Source: Prosthecobacter sp. SYSU 5D2 (lineage in GTDB: Bacteria; Verrucomicrobiota; Verrucomicrobiia; Verrucomicrobiales; Verrucomicrobiaceae). From it: a stretch of DNA of 64,000 nt. A program made the translations under genes and the position numbers. Positions 48,427-52,891 of this stretch are shown in pieces; within the stretch, counting starts at the first letter, position 1; every line of letters starts with the position of its first letter. The DNA lies in assembly GCF_039655865.1 (NCBI RefSeq), contig NZ_JBBYXL010000010.1, positions 62,001 to 126,000 on the forward strand. The letters are read 5' to 3'. The notes under the pieces are model-generated. The model made no database searches. It saw only the letters and a program-made list of their open reading frames with translations, and was not told the origin of the DNA.

Positions 48427-49578
48427 ATGACTCCCCCCGTCTTGCGCACTGAACAAAGGCAGGCTGAAATTGCCTGGTTTTCGGCCCTTTGTGGCGATGA
48501 CTATGAATACCTGGGTGTGTATGACGGGGATCTTCGAAGCAGCTATGAACACTGCGGCGACATCGTGGAAAAGGCGGATGCACACGGGTTTCAAAACATT
48601 CTTTTGCCATCTGGATGGATCGTGGGGCAGGATGCGCTGAGCTTTGCCTCGGCAATGGCTCCGCAGACGAAGCAGATCAACCAGCTGGTGGCGCTGCGCA
48701 TGGGAGAGGTGTGGCCGCCGATGCTGGCGCGGGCCATAGCGACAGCGGACCACATCGCCAAAGGCAGGTTGTGCATCAACATCATCTCCTCCGACATGCC
48801 GGGGATGAAGGAGAGCAATGAGGTGCGCTATGCGCGCAGCAGCGAGATTATCCAGATCCTGCAGAAGCTGTGGGCGACGGACGGGCCCATGGAATGGAAG
48901 GGTGAGTTTTACAACTTCAGCCTGCCGACCTGCGACCCTGCAAAGCCGTATCAGCAGAATGGCGGGCCGCTGCTTTATTTTGGCGGCATTTCCCCGCTGG
49001 CGCAGGACCTGTGCGCGAAGCACTGCGATGTGTTTTTGATGTGGCCGGAGACGGAGGACCGGCTGGCGGAGACGATGCGGGGCATGTCTGAAAAGGCGGC
49101 GGGCTATGGGCGCAAGATTGACTTCGGCCTGCGCATTCACGTGATCGTGCGGGAGACGGAGGCGGAGGCCAGGGCGGCGGCTGACCGGCTGATTTCCAAG
49201 CTGGATCTGGAAAAGGGGCAGGAGATCAGGAAAAAGTCCCTGGACAGCCAGAGTGCGGGTGTGCTGCGCCAGGATGAGCTGCGGGCGCAGAGCAAGGACC
49301 TCTTTATCGAGGATCATGTCTGGTCCGGCATTGGCCTGGCGCGGAGCGGCTGCGGCAGCGCGATTGTGGGCGACCCTGACCAGGTGGTGGCCAAGATGAA
49401 CCGTTACATGGACATGGGCATCCGGGCTTTCATCCTGAGTGGTTATCCGCATCTGGATGAGTGTGATCTGTTTGCGAAGCATGTGCTGCCGCGATTGCCG
49501 ACCTGCCGGTTGAATGAAGTGCAGGGTCGGCTCGTTTCTGATCCGGTGACACCGCTGACCACGGCCCCGCGCCGGTGA
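48427..49578 (+). CDS. SsuD-like FMNH2-dependent monooxygenase (LLM class)
   Basis: 383 residues. Luciferase-like TIM-barrel flavoprotein of the alkanesulfonate-monooxygenase group: CGDIVEKADAHGFQNILLPS, KQINQLVALRMGEVWPPMLA, ADHIAKGRLCINIISSDMPG, a family core EIIQILQKLWATDGPMEWKG, GGPLLYFGGISPLAQDLCAK, and MGIRAFILSGYPHLDECDLF at the end. It uses FMNH2 from a separate reductase to oxygenate its substrate; the reductase gene is just upstream. Cleavage of sulfonates to sulfite is the known reaction of SsuD; substrate specificity here is inferred only. Cytosolic. Confidence 0.87.
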   Translation: MTPPVLRTEQRQAEIAWFSALCGDDYEYLGVYDGDLRSSYEHCGDIVEKADAHGFQNILLPSGWIVGQDALSFASAMAPQTKQINQLVALRMGEVWPPMLARAIATADHIAKGRLCINIISSDMPGMKESNEVRYARSSEIIQILQKLWATDGPMEWKGEFYNFSLPTCDPAKPYQQNGGPLLYFGGISPLAQDLCAKHCDVFLMWPETEDRLAETMRGMSEKAAGYGRKIDFGLRIHVIVRETEAEARAAADRLISKLDLEKGQEIRKKSLDSQSAGVLRQDELRAQSKDLFIEDHVWSGIGLARSGCGSAIVGDPDQVVAKMNRYMDMGIRAFILSGYPHLDECDLFAKHVLPRLPTCRLNEVQGRLVSDPVTPLTTAPRR

Positions 49579-49628: not shown

Positions 49629-50675
49629 ATGAATTCGCCCGTCCGCTTTGTACTCGCAGGTTTTGGAGCCTGGGGGAAGTTTCATGCCCAGTCCATTGCC
49701 GGAAATCCGGAGGCGGAGCTGGTGGCAATCTCGGTGCCTTCGGAGGCTACACGAGCAGAGGCACAGGCACTTTATCCGCAGGCGCAGATCTTTGCCGATG
49801 CGATGGAAATGATCGCACAGACCGAGTTTGACATCATTGACATTGCGACGCCGAGCCACACGCATCGGGAGATCGCCGTGGCGGCAATGAGCCGGGGCAA
49901 ACATGTGCTGCTGGAGAAACCGATGGCCATCACGCTGGAGGATTGCAAAACCATCGTGGCGGCGGCGAAGGAGCACGGCGTCCATCTGGCGGTGGGGCAT
50001 GAATTGCGGCTTTCATCGCAGTGGGGGGAGATCAAGAAGATCATCGAACGTGGTACCATCGGGGACCCGCAGTATGTGCTGGTGGAGCTTTCAAGAAAGC
50101 CTTACCGCCAGGGGGCCAGCGGCTGGCGTTATGATCCGGCGCGCGTGGGGAGCTGGGTGCTGGAGGAGCCGATTCATTTCTTTGACCTGGCGCGCTGGTA
50201 TCTGGAGGGCAGTGGCGATCCGGTGGAGCTGTATGCCTATGGCAACTCCCGCGATGCGGAGCGCCCGGGGCTGTTTGATAATTTCAGCGCAATGTTTAAA
50301 TATGCGAATGGCAGTTATGGGGTGGTTTCGCAGACGCTGGCCGCCTTTGAGCATCATCAGACGGTGAAGGTGAGCGGTACGAAAGGGGCGCTGTGGGCAG
50401 GTTGGAGCGGAGCGCTGGACCGCACGCTGGAGCCGAGTTATTTCCTGAAGGTCTTCGACGGCGAGAACCTGGAGAATGTGAAGATGGAAAAGCACAGCGG
50501 CGAGGTGTTTGAACTGCGCGAGGAGATCGCCCAATGCGTGGAAATGGTGCGCACCGGAAAAGCCCCGATTGCGACGGGCCTCGATGGTCTGTGGTCCGCC
50601 GGGCTGTGCCTGGTGGCGGAGGAATCCATCCGCCAGGGCAGGCCGCTGCCGGTGGGGGAGATGCTGAAGTTTTAG
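49629..50675 (+). CDS. Gfo/Idh/MocA-family oxidoreductase (cytosolic)
   Basis: 348 residues, no signal peptide. Rossmann motif VLAGFGAWGKFHAQSIAGNP, IIDIATPSHTHREIAVAAMS, catalytic Lys in LLEKPMAITLEDCK, and HELRLSSQWGEIKKIIERGT. The C-terminal beta-sheet domain (RKPYRQGASGWRYDPARVGS, EEPIHFFDLARWYLEGSGDP) binds substrate. NAD(P)-dependent oxidation of a sugar, inositol or related polyol. It sits between the SsuD-like gene and a repeat-bracketed GxxExxY gene. The GGGTAAAAAGAT repeat begins within its stop codon, TAG at 50673-50675. Confidence 0.88.
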   Translation: MNSPVRFVLAGFGAWGKFHAQSIAGNPEAELVAISVPSEATRAEAQALYPQAQIFADAMEMIAQTEFDIIDIATPSHTHREIAVAAMSRGKHVLLEKPMAITLEDCKTIVAAAKEHGVHLAVGHELRLSSQWGEIKKIIERGTIGDPQYVLVELSRKPYRQGASGWRYDPARVGSWVLEEPIHFFDLARWYLEGSGDPVELYAYGNSRDAERPGLFDNFSAMFKYANGSYGVVSQTLAAFEHHQTVKVSGTKGALWAGWSGALDRTLEPSYFLKVFDGENLENVKMEKHSGEVFELREEIAQCVEMVRTGKAPIATGLDGLWSAGLCLVAEESIRQGRPLPVGEMLKF

Positions 50676-50702
50676 GGTAAAAAGATTCTGGGTAAAAAGA
50701 TT
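50675..50702 (+). repeat. Left terminal repeat of the GxxExxY element
   Basis: Two tandem GGGTAAAAAGATT units (50675-50687 and 50690-50702), 6 bp before the GxxExxY start. Its reverse complement, with 24 of 28 matches by hand, is at 51505-51532 just after the gene. It also resembles the arm of the 20339-20397 palindrome. Confidence 0.75.
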
Positions 50703-50708
50703 TTATTA

Positions 50709-51500
50709 ATGCCTGTGGAATGTGCCATCCCATTTTCGAGACTGGAACGTGAGGAGTTTCAGCAGATGGACTATCGGGTGATGGCTTGTGCGTTTGCGTC
50801 GCATGGTGAACTGGGCCGGCATTGCACGGAGGAGATTTACAGAAATGATCTGATGGCACGTCTTGAAGAGGAGGGGATGGGGCCATTGCAATCGGAGGTT
50901 CTGGTGCGTGTGAGGCATGGCGGATTCGTGAAAGACTACCGGTTAGACCTGGTGGTGGCTGACAGGGGCATTTATGAGCTGAAGGTGGCCAAAGGAATCG
51001 CCGAAGAGCATGAAGGCCAGACGCTGAACTATCTTTTGATGACGGACTGTGCTCATGGGAAGATTGTAAATTTCCTTTCAAGCTCGGTGGAGTCACGGTT
51101 TGTTAATAACCCGATGACGCGGCTGGCTCGGTGCCGGTATTCGGTGAGCGAACATGCGTGGCGTGGGCCGGATGAACTCAGGCGGGGCTTTTTGTCCGCT
51201 GTTGAGGACCTGGGGCTGTTTCTTGAAACGGCACTGTATAACCAAATTTTGATCCATCGGTTTGGCGGTGCGGAAGTTGCCATGCAAAGCCATCCTTTAA
51301 TCCGCAATGGACGAATCTTAGGCCGCCAGCTTTTTCAAATGTGCAGTCCGGGTGAGGCTTTTCGGGTAACGGCGTTGTCTTCCAAGCTCGCAGCCCAGCA
51401 AACCAGTTTCATGAAACTGCTTGCGCTGACAAAACTCAAGGCACTCCACTGGATCAACCTGAACCGTCACGATATCCAGTTCCGAACCCTGGCCGTCTAG
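50709..51500 (+). CDS. GxxExxY-family protein with C-terminal extension
   Basis: 263 residues; usual members are ~120-140. The N-terminal half matches the GxxExxY family: MDYRVMACAFASHGELGRHC, then E41-E-I-Y44, QSEVLVRV, DYRLDLVVADRGIYELKVAK and EGQTLNYLLMTDCAHGKIVNF. The first Gly of the name motif is His here. Asp80 and Glu90-x-Lys92 give a PD-(D/E)xK-like core, so a nuclease is plausible though not shown for the family. The C-terminal ~130 residues (FLETALYNQILIHRF and onward) have no family I can name. The gene is bracketed by inverted 28-nt repeats of the GGGTAAAAAGAT type, splitting two Gfo/Idh/MocA genes, which points to mobility of the unit. Confidence 0.78.
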   Translation: MPVECAIPFSRLEREEFQQMDYRVMACAFASHGELGRHCTEEIYRNDLMARLEEEGMGPLQSEVLVRVRHGGFVKDYRLDLVVADRGIYELKVAKGIAEEHEGQTLNYLLMTDCAHGKIVNFLSSSVESRFVNNPMTRLARCRYSVSEHAWRGPDELRRGFLSAVEDLGLFLETALYNQILIHRFGGAEVAMQSHPLIRNGRILGRQLFQMCSPGEAFRVTALSSKLAAQQTSFMKLLALTKLKALHWINLNRHDIQFRTLAV

Positions 51501-51504
51501 AGAA

Positions 51505-51532
51505 AATTTTTCTACCCTCAATCTTTTTACCC
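51505..51532 (-). repeat. Right terminal repeat of the GxxExxY element
   Basis: Inverted copy of 50675-50702 (on the minus strand GGGTAAAAAGATT then GAGGGTAGAAAAATT), 5 nt after the GxxExxY stop and 10 bp before the next gene. 24 of 28 positions match the left copy. Confidence 0.75.
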
Positions 51533-51541
51533 TCATTAACC

Positions 51542-52822
51542 ATGACCACACGACGCCACTTTATCACCACGACTTCTGCGGCTGCGCTGACGGCGGCGAC
51601 CCATGCGTTTGCTGCGCCTTCGGACGGGGACATTAAAATTGCTCTCATCGGGTGCGGGGGGAGGGGGACGGGGGCTTGCAACCAGGCGTTGAGTGCGGGG
51701 TCATCCGTGAAACTGGTGGCGCTGGTGGATCCGCTGGAAGGAAAGGCGCAGGCGGCACTGGACATCCTGATGACGAAGCATGAGGGACAGATCGCGGTAC
51801 CGCCGGAGCAGGTGTTCACGAATTTTGAAGACTACAAAAAGGCGTTTGAACTGGCGGATGTGGTGCTGATCACCACGCCGCCTGGGCCGAGGCCGTTTTT
51901 GTTTGAGGAGGCGATCAAGGCCGGGAAGCATGTGTTTATGGAAAAGCCGGTGGCGACGGATGCGGCTGGGGTGCGGCGGGTGCTGGCGGCGGCGGAGGTG
52001 GCTAAGCAGAAGAAGCTGAATGTGTGCGTGGGCTTCCAGCGCCGGTATGATCCGGGTTACATGGATGTGATCCAGCGAATCCAGGACGGGGAGATTGGAG
52101 ACCTGGTGTATGGCCGGGTGTATTGGAACGGGACGTCACGTCCGGGGTTCCCGCGAGAGCCGGGGGAAAGCGAACTGCATTACCAGATTCGGAACTGGTA
52201 CTTTTTTACCTGGATGAGCGGCGACCATATCCTGGAGCAGCACTGCCATAACCTGGATGTGGCCAACTGGGTGATGAAAGGCGTGATGCCCATCCGTGCG
52301 GTGGGACAAGGTGGACGGGAGGTGCGCAAGGCGCGTGAGAACGGCACGATCTTTGACCATCACACGGTGGAGTTTGAATATGAAAACGGCATGCGCATCC
52401 TGAGCCAGTGCTGCCAGATCGGCGGCAAGTGCGCGCGCTCGGTGAGTGAGCATTTCCATGGAACCAAGGGCGTGGCGGATCTGGGCAACGGTGGCAAATT
52501 TTCCATCAATGGCCAGCCGCCGGGTGGCAAACGGAGCCGGATCAAGGAAGATCCGTATCAGCTTGAGCATGACACGTTTTTTGAAAACATCCGCACGGGC
52601 AAGGTGCGCAACGATGCGGAATACGCCGCCCACAGTACGTTGATGGGGGTGATGGGCCGCATGGCAACCTATACGGGGCAGGTGATCACCTGGGACCAGG
52701 CGATGAATTCCAAGGAAGTTCTGGTCCCGGATAACCTGACCTGGGAGACGGAACCGCCTGTGAAGCCGGATGCGGATGGCTGGTATCCGGTGGCAGTGCC
52801 GGGGACGACGATGCCGGTATGA
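51542..52822 (+). CDS. Gfo/Idh/MocA-family oxidoreductase with Tat leader
   Basis: 426 residues. Leader TTRRHFITTTSAAALTAATH is Tat-type, so the protein is probably exported folded with its cofactor. Rossmann IALIGCGGRGTGACNQALSA, catalytic Lys in FMEKPVATDAAG, CVGFQRRYDPGYMDVIQRIQ, and a C-terminal substrate domain (DHILEQHCHNLDVANWVMKG, CCQIGGKCARSVSEHFHGTK). NAD(P)-linked polyol/sugar oxidation is the family reaction; in PVC bacteria exported members are very numerous and mostly uncharacterised. It is followed by an MFS transporter gene 82 bp downstream. Confidence 0.87.
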   Translation: MTTRRHFITTTSAAALTAATHAFAAPSDGDIKIALIGCGGRGTGACNQALSAGSSVKLVALVDPLEGKAQAALDILMTKHEGQIAVPPEQVFTNFEDYKKAFELADVVLITTPPGPRPFLFEEAIKAGKHVFMEKPVATDAAGVRRVLAAAEVAKQKKLNVCVGFQRRYDPGYMDVIQRIQDGEIGDLVYGRVYWNGTSRPGFPREPGESELHYQIRNWYFFTWMSGDHILEQHCHNLDVANWVMKGVMPIRAVGQGGREVRKARENGTIFDHHTVEFEYENGMRILSQCCQIGGKCARSVSEHFHGTKGVADLGNGGKFSINGQPPGGKRSRIKEDPYQLEHDTFFENIRTGKVRNDAEYAAHSTLMGVMGRMATYTGQVITWDQAMNSKEVLVPDNLTWETEPPVKPDADGWYPVAVPGTTMPV

Positions 52823-52827
52823 ATAAG

Positions 52828-52891
52828 AAAGTGCTCAGATGGAGCGGACTGCCCTATGACTGAGCACAGCGCACTGTGAACTGAGCACTTT
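52828..52891. repeat. Intergenic inverted repeat (CTGAGCACT type)
   Basis: 11-bp perfect arms AAAGTGCTCAG (52828-52838) and CTGAGCACTTT (52881-52891), with a third CTGAGCAC at 52860-52867. It fills the gap before the MFS gene. Its words resemble the CTGAACACT words of the repeat inside uvrA, so the two may belong to one family. Confidence 0.6.

Follow-up and report, generated by a model that had tools for sequence, protein, structure and literature searches.

Lineage-specific tandem repeats bracket many GxxExxY genes and also occur without them, suggesting a form of selfish or mobile DNA not recognised so far

A GxxExxY gene of Prosthecobacter sp. SYSU 5D2 was found to lie between two inverted arms built of short tandem units, and arms of this kind, with units of differing sequence, accompany most of its long-form relatives. 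The repeat unit is lineage-specific and follows the sequence of the GxxExxY protein, gene-less copies of it are dispersed in the genomes, some genomes have the gene and others lack it at a site with the same two neighbours, and the catalytic residues of a PD-(D/E)XK nuclease are conserved. Bracketing repeats together with scattered gene-less copies suggest selfish or mobile DNA of a type that has gone unrecognised. We consider it somewhat probable, on comparative grounds, that the unit is a REPIN/RAYT-like (REPtron-like) element run by a repeat-specific PD-(D/E)XK nuclease instead of a transposase, whose protein would bind the repeats, nick or cut them, and so spread and move them. The link between the protein and its own repeats provides a concrete, testable substrate, and with it a first testable job for the GxxExxY family. 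Dispersed, short-period intergenic repeats occur in many environmental bacteria, and the same link might explain them. If the reading is true, a second, unrelated enzyme class would stand beside the REPIN/RAYT system.

The gene, its arms and its protein

The window, which is the whole stretch of 64,000 nucleotides that was analysed, contains the following features at the site of interest:

49629..50675, + strand: upstream neighbour, Gfo/Idh/MocA oxidoreductase by Pfam; its stop codon overlaps the left arm
50674..50704, + strand: left arm, with tandem units 50675-50687 and 50690-50702 oriented towards the gene
50709..51500, + strand: long-form GxxExxY gene, 263 aa (TIGR04256 E 1.8e-19; PF13366 E 1.3e-19)
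50763..51080, + strand: PD-(D/E)XK domain (PDDEXK_3 match, residues 19-124)
50946-50948, 50976-50978 and 50982-50984, + strand: catalytic codons D80, E90 and K92
51129..51497, + strand: C-terminal half, residues 141-263, probably a degenerate nuclease-domain copy without catalytic residues
51503..51533, - strand: right arm, an inverted copy, with units 51520-51532 (exact) and 51505-51517 (2 mismatches)
51542..52822, + strand: downstream neighbour, Gfo/Idh/MocA oxidoreductase by Pfam

Each arm consists of two tandem 15-nt units, GGGTAAAAAGATTnn, and over their 31 nt the two arms are complementary at 27 positions (87%). These are the same objects as the 28-nt inverted repeats pointed out by a sequence-only reading of this DNA, which had also let the left one start within the upstream gene's stop codon and had placed the whole unit between two Gfo/Idh/MocA genes. 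Both statements hold: the left arm begins inside the TAG of the upstream gene and ends 4 nt before the ATG, the right arm starts 2 nt past the stop codon, and the second Gfo/Idh/MocA gene begins eight bases further on. The inverted-repeat score between the upstream and downstream flanks was 23 for the GxxExxY gene; since the score did not exceed 15 in 44 further ORFs, taken from a mechanical list for the window, or 16 in 2000 base shuffles of both flanks, the arms are not a product of chance. Neither arm, folded singly, outdoes its shuffled versions (z 0.42 and -0.73), and no Rfam match was found between window positions 49500 and 53000. The gene has a lower G+C content (0.533) than its two neighbours (0.60). 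It is the single gene between the arms, and both adjoining genes are oxidoreductases by Pfam, leaving no place here for the partner methyltransferase of a restriction-modification system. A short motif, CACTGTGAACTGAGCAC, was also noted at 52872-52888 ahead of an MFS gene; a version of it in reverse complement is found beside a dispersed repeat (L004), and it perhaps marks a further dispersed family.

The protein belongs to the family by both curated models (TIGR04256, 70.2 bits with a cut-off of 35; PF13366, 71.1 bits with a cut-off of 22) and differs in having a second half that resembles a dead copy of the domain, the PDDEXK_3 match covering the first half of the 263 residues. In alignments of 49 and of 73 relatives, from which truncated and some redundant members were left out, D80, E90, K92 and Q104 do not vary, and neither does the GxxExxY residue E41. 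Values of dN/dS were 0.08-0.22 in 11 pairs; the gene is under purifying selection. Asp80 and Glu90-x-Lys92, singled out beforehand as the marks of a possible nuclease, have thus been borne out as conserved residues of a selected gene.

In the predicted model (pLDDT 97.2, pTM 0.90) the helix/strand order of the first half is repeated in the second. Profile alignment of the halves with hhalign was in register over 97 columns, with GxxExxY on a similar motif and the catalytic residues falling on Q210, R219 and T221; the match itself was weak (probability 1.6%, E 0.031). Predicted alone, the second half was modelled at pLDDT 95.1 and had no Foldseek match at E 0.001. Its best structural alignments were nuclease folds, with a Z of 6.0 for 4ic1, which can reflect a common arrangement, and of near 5 for restriction enzymes. 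From helix/strand order, profile alignment and fold matches the second half is likely to be a degenerate, catalytically dead copy of the nuclease domain; we call the duplication likely and not proven because the profile similarity is of low significance, Foldseek gave no match and the Z is modest.

For the full-length model the best fold match is 4ic1 (Z 8.4 over 101 residues, rmsd 3.5; Foldseek E 5e-4), the structure of SSO0001, which we take to be a Cas4; 4r5q, titled Cas4, follows at Z 6.5, and Cas4, Dna2 and Hjc structures are all among the fold matches. The genes directly adjoining the window gene are metabolic by Pfam. By sequence, no relative with a solved structure was convincing (best E 0.21), absence from structure lists not being evidence, and no defence family was matched by the window protein. 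All 49 aligned members match PDDEXK_3, and the 4 families listed for them at E 0.01 include no transposase family, Y1_Tnp among those absent.

Repeats around related genes

When the protein was searched against 48 genomes from the genus, 53 near-full-length matches were listed, counting the window's own and one cut by a contig end, besides partial matches. Flanks were scored at 51 of 55 loci (left out were L051, at a contig end; L074 and L075, truncated; and L102, with a broken frame), and an inverted repeat with a score of 17 or more between the upstream and downstream 200 nt was present at 49 of them, L082 and L090 being without one. The mean score was 26.8, versus 12.0 (sd 5.1) for mispaired flanks. 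The 99th percentile of the mispaired flanks was 31, above most own scores and exceeded by 11 of the 51; it is this high because relatives share repeats, and as the mispaired control contains relatives with the same repeat, neighbouring ORFs are the fairer test. The unit sequences differ by lineage (GGGTARAAARATT, GGCAAGAAGATT, GACAGCAGAAT, GGTAAAAGATT, GGCAAAGGAATG and others), and many of the genes have on either flank two dimers in inverted orientation, separated by a short spacer.

Similar results were obtained in a wider scan of public genomes, in which 80 of 113 loci were kept. Except for two titled simply 'bacterium', the records are named after groups of Verrucomicrobia, Planctomycetes, Lentisphaerae or Kiritimatiellae, so that nearly all carry a PVC label. 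Leaving out five with cut flanks, 60 of 75 named relatives scored at least 17 (15 fell below), versus 5.4% of mispaired flanks and none of 31 neighbouring ORFs (Fisher p 9e-16 for the latter comparison). Twenty-three of the 75 are shared with the genus set; among the 52 beyond it, 38 passed. One scan of viral contigs yielded no relative of the long form, and plasmids yielded only partial, weak matches, in 4 records.

GxxExxY genes are common: PF13366 matches were present in 46 of the 48 genus genomes and in 69 of 145 sampled across the phylum. The expectation that every copy would carry the same inverted repeats proved right insofar as repeats accompany these genes widely, and wrong in its literal form, the unit sequences being lineage-specific and the two other PF13366 genes of the window genome having no flanking repeat at all (scores 11 and 8). 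L002 of the window genome, which is G000 (G000:C4:44328-44678), is a second sort of GxxExxY gene without a flanking repeat; many other members of the genus have genes with a comparable score, and this type is perhaps a domesticated form.

The relation between repeat and protein was examined in 94 long-form elements (less than 95% protein identity), using the 4231 pairs with unlike distant flanks. Pairs with similar repeats (17 or more) made up 0.08, 0.07 and 0.11 of those at 25-30, 30-35 and 35-40% protein identity, and then 0.28, 0.52, 0.78 and 0.92 at 40-50, 50-60, 60-70 and 70-95%, the last class consisting of 12 pairs. Repeat and protein similarity were correlated (rho 0.30), and none of 300 permutations gave as strong a value. 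As repeats and proteins change together in pairs whose wider flanks are unlike, gene and repeats stay together at different locations.

Shorter GxxExxY genes have the same layout. In the genus, 21 of 28 scored above 16, versus 12% of mispaired flanks (L025 was left out, and L002 and L044 were scored separately, at 8 and 29). Elsewhere in the phylum, 23 of the 29 genes used out of 30 (L436 was left out) reached 17, versus 5.9% of mispaired flanks and one of 16 control ORFs, which scored 37. The period of the repeat tracks the protein form: it is 14-16 nt in 57 of the 66 self-repeating arms of long-form genes (78 arms examined) and near 9 nt for the shorter genes. Of 46 arms examined in the latter, 37 were self-repeating, 27 of them with a period of 8-10 nt and another 9 with one of 17-19 nt, roughly the double. 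Some of the open frames grouped as 'shorter' have 230-350 codons or more, and individual ones may contain a second domain.

Gene-less copies and sites with and without the gene

The window unit, searched as GGGTAAAAAGATT, has 14 copies in the 5.87-Mb window genome, with 0 for the reversed control. Three are the element's own and the other 11 lie in 10 places, at six of which a second tandem unit was found (up to 2 mismatches); at all 10, no PF13366 gene and no inverted partner (up to 2 mismatches) was detected within 1.5 kb. Across the genus, nine genomes have the gene or a remnant of it at the window's site, and six of them have at least three off-site copies, versus 1 of 39 others (p 4e-5), these 39 including five without a detected upstream gene and seven with possible eroded traces. 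The highest counts, 30 in G006 and 45 in G007, belong to genomes with mere remnants at the site, while in G005 and G014, which have the gene, the searched unit is absent outside it. Judged from mechanical, unannotated ORF lists, most dispersed copies of this family fall between long ORFs or at their ends. One dispersed dimer, ahead of a gene that we take to be mutS, is common to G000 and G006 and absent in G001, G002 and G005. A short-insertion comparison of the fetched loci gave nothing useful on the dispersed copies.

Two further families were followed. The 25-mer dimer GACAGCAGAATGGGGACAGCAGAAT was searched in the 48 genomes with up to 2 mismatches, its control giving 0 throughout. Nineteen of the 20 exact copies are in G010 (7), G039 (5) and G040 (7), the genomes whose long-form gene carries this unit, and one is in G034; outside the genes' own flanks the figure is 14 of 15. 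With mismatches allowed, 14 further genomes gave 1-8 matches each, mostly to a sister variant flanking other long-form genes. Among 30 fetched loci (L304 and L319 gave no dimer by pattern, and three were gene flanks), 18 of the 22 distinct gene-free places are inverted dimer pairs, 16 inward and 2 outward, and four are single. The second family, TGGTAAAAGATTNGGGGTAAAAGATT (up to 2 mismatches, flanking copies included), has 4-8 copies in all five genomes with a matching gene, many of them within a few kb of it, and at least four copies in 3 of the 43 genomes without one (p 3e-5). G030 holds 23 copies of a dimer of this family, TGGTAAAAGATT, some in spaced groups, and no matching GxxExxY gene was found there. 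The 12-mer unit GGCARGAAGATT was rejected as a specificity probe, being too short: its counts, 0-10 per genome, peaked in G012, which is among the three genomes expected, but were low (5 each) in the other two. Repeats at scattered gene-free sites, named at the outset as something that would speak against the idea, do exist; their supposed lack of association with the gene does not, as they occur mostly, with exceptions, in genomes with the matching gene.

The upstream Gfo/Idh/MocA gene, which marks the orthologous site, was found in 43 of the 48 genomes, the site being cut or broken in two of these (G019 and G025). Gene and repeats follow it directly in G000, G005, G011 and G014. A decayed gene remains between the repeats in G036, the inverted pair alone in G017 and G041, a dimer in G007 and part of a unit in G006; in G002 and G024 only 13 bp precede the same downstream gene, and the other genomes have short gaps or other genes, seven with eroded-looking traces. 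Sites with and without the gene, which the sequence-only reading had proposed to compare, thus do occur between the same two neighbours. In a tree of the upstream gene (one gene with 41 sequences, not a species tree) the four gene-bearing genomes stand in three places. One old insertion with repeated losses fits the site at least as well as fresh insertion, and repeated insertion at one site would fit too. Of the earlier notion of a minimal mobile unit, the compact gene-plus-repeats unit is real; its movement is a hypothesis. At another site, the place of the long-form gene of G039 is taken in G040 by an 80-bp gene-less hairpin with the same outer ends, an inverted pair that folds as DNA at -32.2 kcal/mol (z -10). 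No target-site duplication was established, the compared empty sites being too diverged with one genome per species, and in the same one-genome-per-species search no insertion event was caught in progress. At L005, the spacer ahead of the downstream gene contains a palindrome, TTGTGAAATTTTTCACAA, that resembles a Rex operator and has matches at many places in the six relatives searched.

One possible explanation for these arrangements is that the arms are operators, bound by the protein or by another regulator to control the gene, with the dispersed copies as the regulon. The arms are indeed within 2-4 nt of the window gene and the dispersed copies of its family mostly avoid the interior of long ORFs; however, a gene-less hairpin stands in G040 where a relative has the gene, genomes within a single genus have anywhere from 0 to 45 copies, and the repeat periods differ between long-form and shorter genes, implicating the nuclease rather than a common regulator. 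We regard this explanation as unlikely. An additional scenario, also improbable in our judgement, is that the protein protects the genome by trimming or resolving repeat hairpins, the genome coming to depend on it in an addiction-like manner. The stable hairpin of G040, the strong purifying selection on the gene and the presence of Cas4, Dna2 and Hjc among the fold matches would all suit such a role, but G006, G007 and G030 have many repeats without the gene, and the repeats are therefore not lethal in its absence.

Relation to known systems and a possible mechanism

REPtrons consist of RAYT (TnpA-REP) genes with their REPs and REPINs and, as described in three reports on them, have the gene between repeats, related gene-less doublets that form hairpins and are dispersed, and an enzyme and repeat that change together (PMC3116915, PMC8266576, PMC3733652). 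The GxxExxY units are alike in all these respects, although inverted doublets, the rule among the gene-free places of the 25-mer family, are seen at none of the 10 in the window genome. They differ in the enzyme, a PD-(D/E)XK nuclease where that of REPtrons is a Y1 HUH transposase, and in the single arm, which consists of a few tandem units and is not a palindrome; the window arms alone do not fold.

That another enzyme such as a RAYT-type transposase moves the repeats, the GxxExxY genes having picked up repeat ends as passengers, appears very unlikely: Y1_Tnp genes do occur in 47 of the 48 genomes (ten matches in G000), but the inverted repeats of at least 17 at 19 of their 28 scored loci are, by eye, for the most part palindromes rich in GC and do not resemble the tandem units beside GxxExxY genes, for which reason RAYT mobilisation was set aside, and GxxExxY repeats follow the GxxExxY protein sequence. 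Insertion sequences and MITEs share the terminal inverted repeats and, like the GxxExxY unit, occur with and without the gene while keeping their outer ends, but no transposase domain was seen in the 49 GxxExxY members scanned. We know of no PD-(D/E)XK enzyme that integrates DNA alone. In the one open-access library covered, GxxExxY and PF13366 appeared in passing mentions, with no functional study, and no report linking a GxxExxY nuclease to repeats was found.

The preferred reading, a REPtron-like element run by a nuclease, would work as follows. The GxxExxY protein would be a sequence-specific nuclease that recognises the repeat of its own lineage. In the long form, the active domain and the probably inactive copy may act as a built-in pseudo-dimer reading two tandem units 14-16 nt apart, and the shorter form may read units about 9 nt apart. 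Its substrates would be the inverted arms that enclose the gene, together with the copies that lie elsewhere without a gene; cutting or nicking at the arms, followed by host repair or replication restart, could lead to their being copied or excised. Gene-less hairpins would in this way spread and persist, and the gene would stay at a few old locations and often be lost.

The working logic is REPtron-like and the enzyme is of another class, so that the unit would stand beside REPtrons as something new. More tentatively, GxxExxY genes at large may constitute a class of selfish DNA, so far undescribed, that extends over several bacterial phyla and in which a repeat-specific PD-(D/E)XK nuclease, without a transposase or integrase, maintains and spreads its own tandem-unit repeats, their spacing set by the number of nuclease domains; we see this extension as quite possible, if short of probable. 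GxxExxY genes were also scored on plasmids of five phyla, where 3 of 8 reached 17 (Gemmatirosa, Bacteroides and Bernardetia). On a Sphingomonas parapaucimobilis plasmid (L355), the GxxExxY gene lies between annotated fabD and fabG, with gaps of 33 and 2 bp, and visible short-period repeats are confined to its upstream side.
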